A DNA stretch of 64,000 bases, taken from contig JASJAR010000020.1 in assembly GCA_030066905.1 (NCBI GenBank), forward strand, positions 1-64,000, written 5' to 3'. The stretch is from Paracoccaceae bacterium (GTDB lineage Bacteria > Pseudomonadota > Alphaproteobacteria > Rhodobacterales > Rhodobacteraceae). A program made the position numbers and the translations under genes. Under the pieces are notes generated by a model, which was not told the DNA's origin, did not search any database, and saw only the letters and a program-made list of their open reading frames with translations. The stretch's first letter is position 1; every line of letters begins with the position of its first letter. This document shows positions 17,535 through 60,831 of the stretch, one piece after another.

Positions 17535-18650
17535 ATGCGCGCCGAGGCAGAAAACGCCGCTGAGGCGATCCGGAAATCATTGAACCTCCTGGCCCGGCGA
17601 ATGGATTGGGAGACGGCCGAACATCGCCTTGAGGAATTCAACGCGATGATCGAGGACCCCGGTCTTTGGGACGACCAGGAGCGGGCCCAGAAACTGATGC
17701 GCGACCGTCAGATGCTGGTCGACGCGATGGAAAGCTACACGGGCATGGCCCAGGAGCTCGACGACAATATCGAACTCATCGGGCTCGGCGAGGCCGAGGA
17801 CGATGCCGAGGTGGTCGCCGAAGCCGAGGGCGCCCTGCGCGATCTGAAAGACCGGGCAGCGGCCGCCGAGATCGAGGCGCTCCTCGACGGCGAGGCCGAC
17901 GGCAACGACACCTTCCTTGAAATCAACGCAGGCGCTGGGGGCACCGAAAGCTGCGACTGGGCCTCGATGCTGGCGCGGATGTACACCCGTTGGGCGGAGG
18001 CCAAGGGCTACAAGGTCGAGCTGCAATCGGAAAGCGCGGGCGACGAGGCGGGGATCAAATCGGCCGCCTACAAGATTTCGGGGCCTAACGCCTATGGCTG
18101 GCTGAAGACCGAAAGCGGCGTCCACCGGCTGGTGCGGATCAGCCCCTATGACAGTTCCGCCCGGCGGCACACGTCGTTTTCGTCGGTCTGGGTCTACCCG
18201 GTGGTCGACGACAATATCGAGATCGAGGTGAACCCCGCCGATATCCGCATCGACACGTACCGCTCCTCCGGCGCGGGCGGCCAGCACGTCAACACCACCG
18301 ACTCGGCCGTGCGGATCACCCATGTCCCCACCGGTATCGTGGTGACCTCTTCGGAGAAATCCCAGCACCAGAACCGCGATATCGCCATGAAGGCGCTGAA
18401 GTCGCGGCTCTACCAGATGGAGCTCGACAAGCGCACCGCCTCGATCCAGGAAGCGCACGAGTCGAAGGGGGATGCGGGCTGGGGCAATCAGATCCGCTCC
18501 TATGTGCTCCAGCCCTACCAGATGGTGAAGGACCTGCGCACCGGCCACGAGACATCGGACACGTCGGGCGTGCTCGACGGCGATCTCGACGCCTTCATGG
18601 CCGCCACGCTGGCGATGGACAAGACCGGCAAGGGCCGCGAGGACGCCTGA
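17535..18650 (+). CDS. prfB: Peptide chain release factor 2
   Basis: RF2 ends translation at UAA and UGA. The 371-residue protein has the catalytic GGQ at 248-250 ([14 protein letters not shown]) and the stop-codon recognition loop as SPY (203-205, [17 protein letters not shown]), where Escherichia coli has SPF. There is no in-frame UGA or programmed frameshift; the frame is continuous from ATG 17535. The gene ends in the three-part gene-end module (18658-18721). Confidence 0.97.
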
Positions 18651-18657
18651 CCGGGGA

Positions 18658-18676
18658 GGGGGGCTGTCTGCCCCCC
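18658..18676 (+). terminator. GGGGGGC/GCCCCCC hairpin after prfB
   Basis: GGGGGGC (18658-18664), loop TGTCT and GCCCCCC (18670-18676) lie 7 bases after the prfB stop. A second hairpin, GCGCC-TCGC-GGCGC (18677-18690), follows directly. There is no U-tract. Confidence 0.65.
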
Positions 18677-18698
18677 GCGCCTCGCGGCGCCCCCCCGA

Positions 18699-18721
18699 GA
18701 GTATTTCCCGGGAAAATGAAG
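18699..18721 (+). repeat. Gene-end motif after prfB
   Basis: GAGTATTT, then CCCGGG, then AAAATGAAG. It is the third part of the module that also follows lpdA, erpA and typA in the same order and orientation. Confidence 0.6.
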
Positions 18722-31485: not shown

Positions 31486-32883
31486 ATGGCCGAGGCAACA
31501 TTCGACACCGTCGTCATCGGAGCGGGGCCGGGGGGCTACGTGGCCGCGATCCGCGCCAGCCAGTTGGGCCAGAAGGTCGCCATCGTCGAGCGCGAGCATA
31601 TGGGCGGCATCTGCCTCAACTGGGGCTGCATTCCGACCAAGGCGATGCTGCGCTCTTCGGAGGTGTTTCACCTCATGCACCGGGCGAAGGAGTTCGGGCT
31701 GAAGGCCGACGGCATCGACTACGATCTCGACGCGGTGGTCAAGCGTTCCCGGTCAGTGGCCAAACAGCTCAATTCCGGCGTCGGCCACCTGATGAAGAAG
31801 AACAAGGTCACCGTCTTCATGGGCGAGGCGACCTTGCCGTCGAAAGGCACGGTCTCGGTCAGGACCGAGAAGGGCAGCGAGACGCTGAAGGCCAAGAACA
31901 TCATCCTCGCCACCGGTGCCAGGGCGCGGGAACTTCCCGGGCTCGAAGCCGACGGCAAGCGGGTCTGGACCTACAAGCACGCCCTGCAACCGCCCCATAT
32001 GCCGAAGAAGCTCCTCGTCATCGGCTCAGGCGCCATCGGCATCGAGTTTGCGAGCTTTTACAACACGCTCGGGGCCGAAACGACGGTGGTCGAAGTGATG
32101 GACCGGATCCTGCCGGTGGAGGACGCCGAGATCTCCGCCTTCGCCAAAAAGGCCTTCGAGAAACAGGGGATGAAGATCCTCCAGAAAGCCACGGTAAAAA
32201 AGCTCGACCGGGCCGCCGACAAGGTCACCGCCCATATCGAAACGGGTGGGAAGACCGAGACCCTCGAGGTCGATACCGTGATTTCCGCCGTCGGTATCGT
32301 CGGCAATACCGAGGGGCTCGGCCTCGAAAAGCTCGGTGTGAAAGTGGATCGCAGCCATGTCGTGACCGACGAGTATTGCCGCACCGGGGTCGAGGGGCTT
32401 TATGCCATCGGCGACATCGCCGGCGCCCCCTGGCTCGCACATAAGGCGTCCCACGAAGGCGTCATGGTGGCCGAACTGATCGCGGGCAAGAACGATGTCC
32501 ACCCCGTGAAGCCCGAGGCGATTGCCGGCTGCACCTATTGCCACCCCCAGGTGGCGAGCGTCGGCTATTCCGAGGCCAGGGCCCGCGAGTTGGGTTACGA
32601 GGTGAAGGTCGGGAAGTTTCCCTTCATCGGCAACGGCAAGGCCATCGCCCTCGGCGAGCCCGAGGGGATGGTGAAGACCGTCTTCGACGCCAAGACCGGC
32701 GAACTTCTGGGCGCTCATATGATCGGCGCCGAGGTGACCGAGCTCATCCAGGGCTATGTCGTCGGCCGCCAGCTCGAGACCACCGAGGCCGACCTCATGG
32801 AAACGGTGTTCCCGCACCCGACGCTCAGCGAAATGATGCACGAGAGCGTGCTCGACGCCTATGACCGGGTGATCCACATCTGA
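31486..32883 (+). CDS. lpdA: Dihydrolipoyl dehydrogenase (E3)
   Basis: The 465-residue flavoprotein reoxidises dihydrolipoamide in 2-oxoacid dehydrogenase or glycine-cleavage complexes. It has the FAD motif GAGPGG (12-17), redox-active Cys43 and Cys48 in GICLNWGCIPTK, the NAD motif GSGAIGIEFA, AIGDIAGAP, and the C-terminal HPTLSEMMHES with the active-site His-Glu pair. GAGGAGGA precedes ATG 31486. No E1 or E2 genes are adjacent, so which complex it serves is unknown. The gene ends in the three-part gene-end module. Confidence 0.96.
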   Translation: MAEATFDTVVIGAGPGGYVAAIRASQLGQKVAIVEREHMGGICLNWGCIPTKAMLRSSEVFHLMHRAKEFGLKADGIDYDLDAVVKRSRSVAKQLNSGVGHLMKKNKVTVFMGEATLPSKGTVSVRTEKGSETLKAKNIILATGARARELPGLEADGKRVWTYKHALQPPHMPKKLLVIGSGAIGIEFASFYNTLGAETTVVEVMDRILPVEDAEISAFAKKAFEKQGMKILQKATVKKLDRAADKVTAHIETGGKTETLEVDTVISAVGIVGNTEGLGLEKLGVKVDRSHVVTDEYCRTGVEGLYAIGDIAGAPWLAHKASHEGVMVAELIAGKNDVHPVKPEAIAGCTYCHPQVASVGYSEARARELGYEVKVGKFPFIGNGKAIALGEPEGMVKTVFDAKTGELLGAHMIGAEVTELIQGYVVGRQLETTEADLMETVFPHPTLSEMMHESVLDAYDRVIHI

Positions 32884-32891
32884 CCCGTGGA

Positions 32892-32932
32892 GGGGGCGCT
32901 GCCCCCGCCCAGCCCCATGAATGCGGCTGGGC
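32892..32932 (+). terminator. Double hairpin after lpdA
   Basis: GGGGGC-GCT-GCCCCC (32892-32906) is followed directly by GCCCAGCC and GGCTGGGC around a 10-base loop (32907-32932). The first hairpin starts 9 bases past the stop. Confidence 0.65.
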
Positions 32933-32937
32933 CCCCC

Positions 32938-32960
32938 GCGGTACTTTCCCCAAGATGAAG
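32938..32960 (+). repeat. Gene-end motif after lpdA
   Basis: GCGGTACTTT, then CCCCAAGATGAAG. Same position and orientation relative to the gene and hairpins as after prfB and typA. Confidence 0.6.
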
Positions 32961-41629: not shown

Positions 41630-41640
41630 GGCCGGCTGCG

Positions 41641-41663
41641 CTCTCATTGGCCCGCAAATATCC
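41641..41663 (-). repeat. Gene-end motif after erpA (diverged)
   Basis: On the minus strand GGATATTTGCGGG, then CCAATGAGAG. It follows the erpA stop and two hairpins in the same order as the modules after prfB, lpdA and typA. Confidence 0.45.
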
Positions 41664-41671
41664 TCGGGGGA

Positions 41672-41702
41672 GGCGCGAATGCGCCGGGGGCAGACAGCCC
41701 CC
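41672..41702. terminator. Double hairpin between the antiporter and erpA
   Basis: GGCGC-GAAT-GCGCC (41672-41685) and GGGGGC-AGACA-GCCCCC (41686-41702) sit between convergent genes, 4 bases from the erpA stop, and can serve both strands. Confidence 0.6.
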
Positions 41703-49249: not shown

Positions 49250-49329
49250 CGTCGTCGTCCCTCACTTGATCGTGCCCCCCGGACAGCTTGCGCGCGCCCC
49301 GCGAGCCCCGCTGGGTCAAGGCCCGGGCC

Positions 49330-49353
49330 CTTCATCTTGGCGGCAAACACCGC
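49330..49353 (-). repeat. Gene-end motif after typA
   Basis: On the minus strand GCGGTGTTTGCCG, then CCAAGATGAAG. It is the third part of the module following the two typA hairpins. Confidence 0.6.
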
Positions 49354-49359
49354 GGGGGA

Positions 49360-49388
49360 GGCCCGAACGGGCCGGGGGCAGAGCCCCC
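49360..49388 (-). terminator. Double hairpin after typA
   Basis: GGGGGC-AGA-GCCCCC (49374-49388) starts two bases after the typA stop on the minus strand and is followed by GGCCCG-AA-CGGGCC (49360-49373). Confidence 0.65.
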
Positions 49389-60702: not shown

Positions 60703-60767
60703 CCGGGACGGCTGCCGCCGCCGGACCCTTGCGCGACCGGTCCGCCCGCCGCCACCCTCTTGCCGTT

Positions 60768-60789
60768 CGGTATTTTTGCCAAGATGAAG
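60768..60789 (+). repeat. Gene-end motif after cimA
   Basis: CGGTATTTTTG, then CCAAGATGAAG, 66 bases after the cimA stop in the same orientation. No GGGGGC hairpin is present here, so this is the motif without the rest of the module. Confidence 0.55.
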
Positions 60790-60831
60790 CCCGGAGCGCT
60801 GCACCCCTGCTTCACCTTGGGACAAATACCG

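Follow-up and report, generated by a model that had tools for sequence, protein, structure and literature searches.

The element that follows prfB in a 64,000-nt stretch of Paracoccaceae DNA (contig JASJAR010000020.1, positions 1 to 64,000; hereafter the window) is one copy of a dispersed family of extragenic palindromic repeats, found in a single family of the Rhodobacterales in the samples analysed. The repeat is a 60-base module of five parts: hairpin 1 (a G-run, a short loop and a first C-run, C1), an exchangeable hairpin 2, a second C-run (C2), a spacer rich in purines that carries TATTT(T), and a tail roughly 12 nt long. Further copies were sought with a covariance model, named R1, made from 17 aligned copies (15 from genome loci and two from the window) with the two hairpins supplied by us. 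Applied to the whole genome (G000; 3,689,809 bases), R1 gave 97 matches at E ≤ 10, of which 79 were kept (all 77 scoring at least 22.1 bits, plus two weaker ones); one had no flanking DNA, leaving 78. At a threshold of 35 bits, the 3.7-Mb genome holds 59 copies of one family. R1 detects the module in some three quarters of the genera sampled from this major family of marine and soil bacteria, frequently with tens of copies in a genome.

Architecture and boundaries of the module

An earlier sequence-only reading had reported the same order of parts after prfB, lpdA, erpA and typA (gene names assigned by that reading from the sequence). The module was indeed present at all four sites, with the order and strand given there (Table 1). 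The R1 scores were 56.0 (prfB), 60.9 (lpdA), 59.6 (erpA) and 86.3 bits (typA), values that are partly a product of construction since all four sites are among the 17 sequences used to build R1. Hairpin 1 starts 8 nt after the stop codon at prfB (7 if an extra G is counted), 8 nt at lpdA, 4 nt at erpA and 2 nt at typA. The reading had listed three parts; the hairpins and the tail are there, but C2, which lies between hairpin 2 and TATTT, had been missed. The tail motif, in the form in which it was written, is exact at none of the four sites. Instead, the tails (GTGTTT..CCAAGATGAAG at typA, GTACTT..CCAAGATGAAG at lpdA, GTATTT..GGGAAAATGAAG at prfB and GATATTT..GGCCAATGAGAG at erpA) represent three recurring subtypes.

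Table 1. Positions of module parts and copies. Coordinates refer to the window, except for the last row (contig and position in genome G000).
Feature	Position	Strand	Evidence
prfB stop codon TGA	18648-18650	+	
prfB hairpin 1, GGGGGG-CTGTCTG-CCCCCC (7-nt loop subtype)	18658..18676	+	sequence, R1 match
prfB hairpin 2 region, GCGCCTCGCGGCG	18677..18689	+	
prfB second C-run (C2), 7 C	18690..18696	+	
prfB spacer GAGAG, TATTT, tail ..GGGAAAATGAAG (subtype ii)	18697..18721	+	
lpdA hairpin 1, GGGGGCGCTGCCCCC (lpdA stop ends at 32883)	32892..32906	+	sequence, R1 match
lpdA long hairpin 2, CCCCATG apical sequence, one C-C mismatch	32907..32931	+	
lpdA second C-run, GCGG, TACTTT, tail CCAAGATGAAG (subtype i)	32932..32960	+	
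erpA whole module, CTGTCTG loop, tail GATATTT..GGCCAATGAGAG (subtype iii)	41638..41702	-	R1 match
typA whole module, best copy of the window (86.3 bits)	49326..49388	-	R1 match
Tail-only element GGTATTTTTGCCAAGATGAAG, without hairpins 1 and 2	60769..60789	+	
Second tail-only element GGTATTT..CCAAGGTGAAG, tail to tail with the former	60810..60830	-	
GATCGGTCCACCGGACCGATC cassette copies, G000	C13:19338, C38:25832, C6:15793, C13:51248, C11:96296		

The R1 scan of the window gave a weak fifth match (60707-60793, 19 bits) ending in a pair of tail-only elements. This pair (60769-60830) forms an imperfect inverted repeat of tails (GGTATTT..CCAAGATGAAG) without hairpins 1 or 2, and sits between two genes called by us in the same direction. 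The tail pattern had three matches in the window against 0.05 expected from shuffled sequences, and 17 in the genome against none for a reversed control pattern; a strict tail pattern had no matches in a scan of the genome contig collection. The upstream boundary of the module is sharp, with no more than 0.4 bits at any of the 25 positions preceding the first G (41 copies). Downstream, invariance ends with the final G of AAGATGAAG, after which there is a slight preference for GGCC. The tail is strongly conserved, nearly invariant, among the copies of the own genome, where it is linked to the loop of hairpin 1: long loops (of the CTGTCTG kind) occur with non-GCGG spacers in 9 of 10 cases, and spacers of the GCGG type accompany 33 of the 35 loops of 5 nt (p = 6e-7).

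In the 17-copy alignment, hairpin 1 hardly varies (99% of cells paired) and hairpin 2 is paired in 83%. For the whole structure, 13 cells were changed on both sides against 5.5 in shuffles, while two of the five measures, pairs with a double change and pair types, were not above shuffles. RNAalifold, run on the same alignment with the structure not supplied, returned hairpin 1 only, with no covariation. Stems of hairpin 2 were found in 33 of 34 middles from the own genome and in all 93 from elsewhere, amounting to 126 distinct stems with 901 pairs (887 Watson-Crick, 3 GT, 6 AC and 5 other). These pairs carry no sense-strand G-U signature (GT 3 versus AC 6). Their GT rate is below that of 28 canonical terminators from the same DNA (8/296; p = 0.001), terminators that themselves show GT 8 to AC 5 and leave the strand test underpowered. 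Folding paired hairpin 1 with a mean probability of 0.95 and the G-run with C2 at 0.02–0.03; the values for the hairpin 2 region were 0.47 in the own genome and 0.59 elsewhere, and those for C2 with any partner 0.45 and 0.59. The tail motif had been called unpaired, which is not clearly the case: folding pairs TATTT with a probability of 0.41–0.46.

Hairpin 2 also recurs as particular cassettes. Close versions of a long one, GATCGGTCCACCGGACCGATC, are present in five G000 copies (incomplete or changed at one arm in two), and a different recurrent cassette, with CCCCTCGAYGGGG, is found in Paracoccus. One identical hairpin 2 is common to five copies located on five contigs, which suggests that copies probably spread by duplication or gene conversion.

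Gene context, taxonomic range and turnover of sites

The contexts of the own-genome copies rest on our codon-usage gene calls. Of the 78 copies, 30 were convergent, 27 sense co-directional, 15 antisense to both neighbours and 4 divergent, while 2 lay over a called gene, a class that may consist of calling errors; for the 59 copies of at least 35 bits the corresponding figures were 18, 22, 13, 4 and 2. The deficit in divergent spacers (4/78) is significant (p = 4e-6) against an assumed null of 25%. The sequence-only reading expected an enrichment after stop codons, and this was found: hairpin 1 starts between -2 and 15 nt after a sense stop in 36 of the 59 copies, a start at -1 meaning that hairpin 1 takes its first G from a TAG stop. 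Sense preference at co-directional sites was weak (27:15, p = 0.09). In 9 of the 13 antisense copies of at least 35 bits, the tail end lies 0–20 nt from the stop of the oppositely read gene; the element therefore adjoins stop codons with either end. Antisense placement relative to both neighbours, seen in 15 of the 78 copies and often with the tail next to a stop, weakens a strict reading of the module as an RNA 3′-end signal.

The P. ferrooxidans chromid (CP038202.1) holds 21 R1 matches, which our tally against the deposited genes divided into 10 convergent, 7 sense co-directional, 4 antisense and 0 divergent. All 21 lie 3′ of at least one gene and none inside a gene, although three touch a gene end by 1–5 nt. 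In two of the four antisense copies the tail end is at most 20 nt from a stop, and combining these data with those of the own genome gave a sense to antisense ratio of 34:19 (p = 0.05). One copy (CP038202.1:1211490-1211542) occupies the greater part of the 62 nt that separate nrdE from nrdF, lying 3 nt from the end of nrdE and 6 nt ahead of nrdF, and is kept in P. pantotrophus (L265/L273); another begins 19 nt after folD in the folD-purU spacer. Both gene pairs are probable operons. In a different genome (L092; G110:C44:602742), the ATG within the tail AAGATGAAG may be the start codon of the next gene, with the spacer GGAG upstream; the relative G337 has no module there.

A covariance model scan of Rhodobacteraceae genomes, which the sequence-only reading had proposed, found R1 matches (E ≤ 0.001) in 113 of 149 genomes of the family (one per genus, own genome counted) under stricter filters that lose weak matches and with at most 35 candidates scored per genome. 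In a class-wide sample of 190 genomes, scanned with similarly strict filters, two matched at E ≤ 1e-4: the own genome and G055, both of the same family. Matches were also found in 25 named plasmid records, chiefly from Sagittula, Leisingera, Paracoccus, Tritonibacter, Phaeobacter, Salipiger and Ruegeria. No annotated feature lay beneath 21 of these 25, a count that proves little by itself as four or more of the 21 records carry hardly any annotation; two further records were unannotated, and in two a short partial match fell inside a gene. Short matches in Shinella, Pseudonocardia, Streptomyces and Embleya (43–68% of the query) are probably due to chance. In two Sagittula plasmids, NZ_CP021917.1 (~70957) and NZ_CP155731.1 (~81750), homology starts one base before the module, as if at a rearrangement breakpoint.

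Between two Paracoccus species, the module is largely maintained. Sixteen of 18 P. ferrooxidans chromid loci matched a module-bearing P. pantotrophus locus at ~90–96% identity, with the aligned sites occupied, a comparison with a mild ascertainment bias since pairs were chosen because both species had an R1 match; for L261 and L267 the P. pantotrophus loci offered no counterpart. Over 21 module sites, identity was 0.990 for the G-run, 0.972 for C1, 0.981 for C2 and 0.962 for TATTT, against 0.915 for the loop, 0.895 for hairpin 2 (74 gap columns), 0.894 for the spacer and 0.781 for the tail. The flanks gave 0.840 (upstream 30 nt), 0.801 (+19..+45), 0.934 (-200..-60, mostly coding) and 0.887 (+60..+200). 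The core kept between these species thus comprises the strands of hairpin 1, C2 and TATTT. Hairpin 2 showed compensatory change (L249/L270/L246) or was swapped for an unrelated palindrome (L231/L229; L234/L254). Tail subtypes were switched at orthologous sites (L249/L270; L253/L252), and this exchange is why the tail is no better kept than the flank (78% versus 80%); the motif that was described as conserved is so among own-genome copies, but not between these orthologues. At folD-purU the module was found with a long hairpin 2, with a truncated one, and in a minimal form consisting of C-run-GGA-C-run, while P. denitrificans PD1222 has a tail-like stretch without hairpin 1.

Between genera, position was not conserved at the two genes tested. 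Among 17 family relatives, a sense module followed typA in one (L126) and an inverted one in another (L127); among 18 relatives, none had a sense module after prfB and one had an inverted module (L160). In about five of the 17, typA ends instead, as judged by eye, with a canonical-looking hairpin-T terminator (L119, with a short T-run, L121, L123, L127 and L128). Within one genus, a site is occupied in G110 and empty in G337; in this single pair examined, with flank identity of 73–78%, no clear target duplication was seen. At L130, 3′ of typA, two tails form a near-perfect palindrome (GGGGATATTTCTTTCTGAAGC..GCTTCAGAAAGAAATATCCCC), which gives the appearance of homogenisation between the tails of two facing gene ends; L103 and L237/L244 likewise have facing pairs whose variant tails are similar.

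Relation to known elements and possible function

The REP and BIME sequences of enterobacteria are short palindromic extragenic repeats, present in tens to hundreds of copies mostly 3′ of genes, in both orientations and sometimes as inverted pairs. The module resembles them in being palindromic, extragenic and present in many copies, mostly 3′ of genes and in both orientations, with inverted pairs at 60769-60830 of the window and in L093, L103 and L253. It differs in its two hairpins, the second of them exchangeable, its second C-run and its AT-rich tail. REP sequences linked to RAYT transposases have a conserved tetranucleotide of the GTAG/GGAG type 5′ of the palindrome; none precedes the hairpin of the module (at most 0.4 bits in the 25 upstream positions of 41 copies). 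A RAYT-driven REP was rejected, as PF01797 was not found in the own genome (94.7% complete); this domain is present in 15 of the 149 family genomes, against 113 with the module in a sample of equal size. Two defining features of RAYT-linked REP/BIME, the transposase and the tetranucleotide, are thus missing. BOX, ERIC, Correia and other MITE-like repeats are modular, hairpin-forming, extragenic and family-restricted. The module shares all four properties, but no terminal inverted repeat was seen in the single module, and no clear target duplication at the one site pair examined.

Stable intergenic stem-loops in other bacteria have been reported, in the portion of the survey consulted, to be preferentially located in convergent spacers and within 50 bp downstream of a stop codon (PMC1590033), a preference that these stem-loop families share with the module. 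Term counts found no occurrence of Rhodobacter or Silicibacter in the main text of PMC1590033 or PMC2267715. No description of the module was found in the parts searched of open-licence papers, including those of PMC2864571 and PMC5107571 and, by term counts, PMC2267715. The module resembles known extragenic repeats, differs from them in construction and, on this search, seems undescribed. A known RNA family was rejected, since Rfam 15 gave no match at gathering score in the window or in 10 loci: the window yielded two tRNAs only, and the four matches obtained from the loci at E ≤ 5 were weak and did not reach gathering scores. One of these, to mir-1304 (L103, 1462-1534; 22.5 bits versus a gathering score of 90), overlaps the modules of L103.

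With about even confidence, we read the module as a gene-end element of the REP/BIME type without RAYT, in which the hairpins serve, within 3′-UTRs, as an exonuclease barrier and a leaky terminator. Transcription of the hairpins into the 3′-UTR, and the steps that would follow, are predicted from the DNA sequence. Hairpin 1 would be the first barrier behind the stop codon, halting 3′-to-5′ exonucleases and protecting the upstream cistron; where a transcription unit ends, the GC hairpins together with UAUUU(U) may form a leaky, non-textbook terminator. In antisense copies the near-symmetric hairpins would still form, which could explain why both orientations are tolerated, or such copies might be the residue of a spreading repeat. 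This reading fits the placement of the module, the maintenance of its core, the occurrence, in some relatives, of different terminators behind the same gene, and the operon-internal copies; those in nrdE-nrdF and folD-purU favour a role in RNA stability or attenuation over full termination. Counting against it are the antisense copies (15/78 and 4/21), the lack of positional conservation between genera, the recovery of hairpin 1 only by RNAalifold and the absence of a G-U signature in hairpin 2. In the parts consulted of work on R. sphaeroides, highly structured RNA was associated with stops of PNPase decay, and no motif was noted upstream of PNPase-dependent 3′-ends (PMC7866481), which speaks against a sequence-specific end signal there; the 3′-ends of UTR-derived sRNAs of this species were, in the portion consulted, many of them unassigned or terminator-predicted (PMC8625941). 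If the module does cap mRNAs, it would set the 3′-ends and relative expression of many genes, including operon-internal ones, would affect model organisms such as Paracoccus and Ruegeria, and would confound terminator prediction in them.

Several observations would suit a selfish or DNA-level repeat, in which a transposase, template switching or gene conversion multiplies DNA palindromes that build up at gene ends because insertion is least harmful there, or because a nucleoid protein or gyrase binds them; we hold this possible, though rather unlikely. It would account for the two orientations at gene ends, the near-perfect strand-symmetric palindromes, the hairpin 2 shared by five copies on five contigs, the absence of the module from orthologous genes of other genera, the occupied and empty G110/G337 sites and the switching of tail subtypes at orthologous sites. 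It is harder to reconcile with a core far better conserved between species than the near flanks, with 16 of 18 loci common to two Paracoccus species, with the failure to find the RAYT transposase family PF01797 in the own genome and in 133 others of the 149, and with the lack of a clear target duplication at the one occupied/empty pair.

Recognition of the transcript tail (GTATTT..AAGATGAAG) by a specific protein or small RNA, or processing of the ends there by an RNase, is improbable. A U-rich stretch plus A-R-N-like repeats would suit Hfq. The near-invariant tails of the own genome, their occurrence without hairpins 1 and 2 and their linkage to loop length (9/1 versus 2/33, p = 6e-7) agree with such recognition, but the antisense copies, the orthologous Paracoccus tails kept no better than the flank and the change of tail letters between genera do not. 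The interpretation given by the sequence-only reading is borne out in part: placement, real structure and a core kept between species support it, but not the antisense copies or a tail that is not specially kept.

An intrinsic terminator pure and simple, unusual only in having TATTT(T) as its U-tract, is very improbable. The position after stops, the 96% conservation of TATTT between species, the GC-rich hairpin with a short T-rich stretch downstream and the canonical-looking terminators that some relatives carry at the corresponding gene end point towards it. However, the module has two hairpins, conserved sequence beyond the T-run, and a T-run that is mostly short and apart from the stem: in an intrinsic terminator the stem is directly followed by about 7–8 T, whereas here C2 and a 4–5 nt spacer separate it from TATTT(T). 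As the sequence-only reading stated, this is not a textbook terminator; the lack of a U-tract on which that statement was based holds for a textbook tract at the four sites, but a run of at least five T occurs in the last 35 bases of 24 of the 78 copies. A CTCC-CCC-GGAG hairpin directly before TATTT fits copies of many genera but was rejected: in the own genome the spacer is GCGG, with a mismatch, and the folding probability of the spacer with the C2 region is only 0.03 there and 0.15 in others. Copies also lie inside nrdE-nrdF and folD-purU, and sometimes beside a canonical terminator (L089, L102).

Length coupling of the C-runs

C1 and C2 were of equal length in 116 of 128 copies outside the own genome (shuffles: mean 76.5, maximum 94), a set that includes some orthologues and a few mis-parsed rows; by size, 4 was paired with 4 in 8/8 and 6 with 6 in 16/23. 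A first parser had mis-assigned some hairpins, and the stricter one used for these counts still mis-parses a few rows (e.g. C24:75564). Equality was weaker in the own genome (32/45; shuffle mean 25.7, maximum 33), partly because C2 is often preceded by another C. This coupling of run lengths, like the exchange of hairpin 2 under retained pairing, is an evolutionary behaviour open to direct test.

Equal C-runs are what would be predicted if the G-run, C1 and C2 formed one three-strand unit with hairpin 2 as a hinge, a reading we regard as a long shot. C2 would occupy the major groove of hairpin 1, giving a C+.G-C triplex, or would compete with C1 for the G-run; in minimal forms, the 3-nt turn (GGA, ACA or GCA) would give the parallel polarity required. 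Contiguous C+ needs low pH. Folding strongly favours G:C1, with G:C2 above 0.5 in two of the 24 short-form copies and in two of the 149 others, and hairpin-templated mutation or gene conversion could equalise the runs without any function. If true, this arrangement would amount to an mRNA end that is naturally capped by a triplex or acts as a switch. For one minimal form folded alone, the minimum-energy structure is G:C2, and at one orthologous site the three runs changed jointly from 4/4/4 to 5/5/5.
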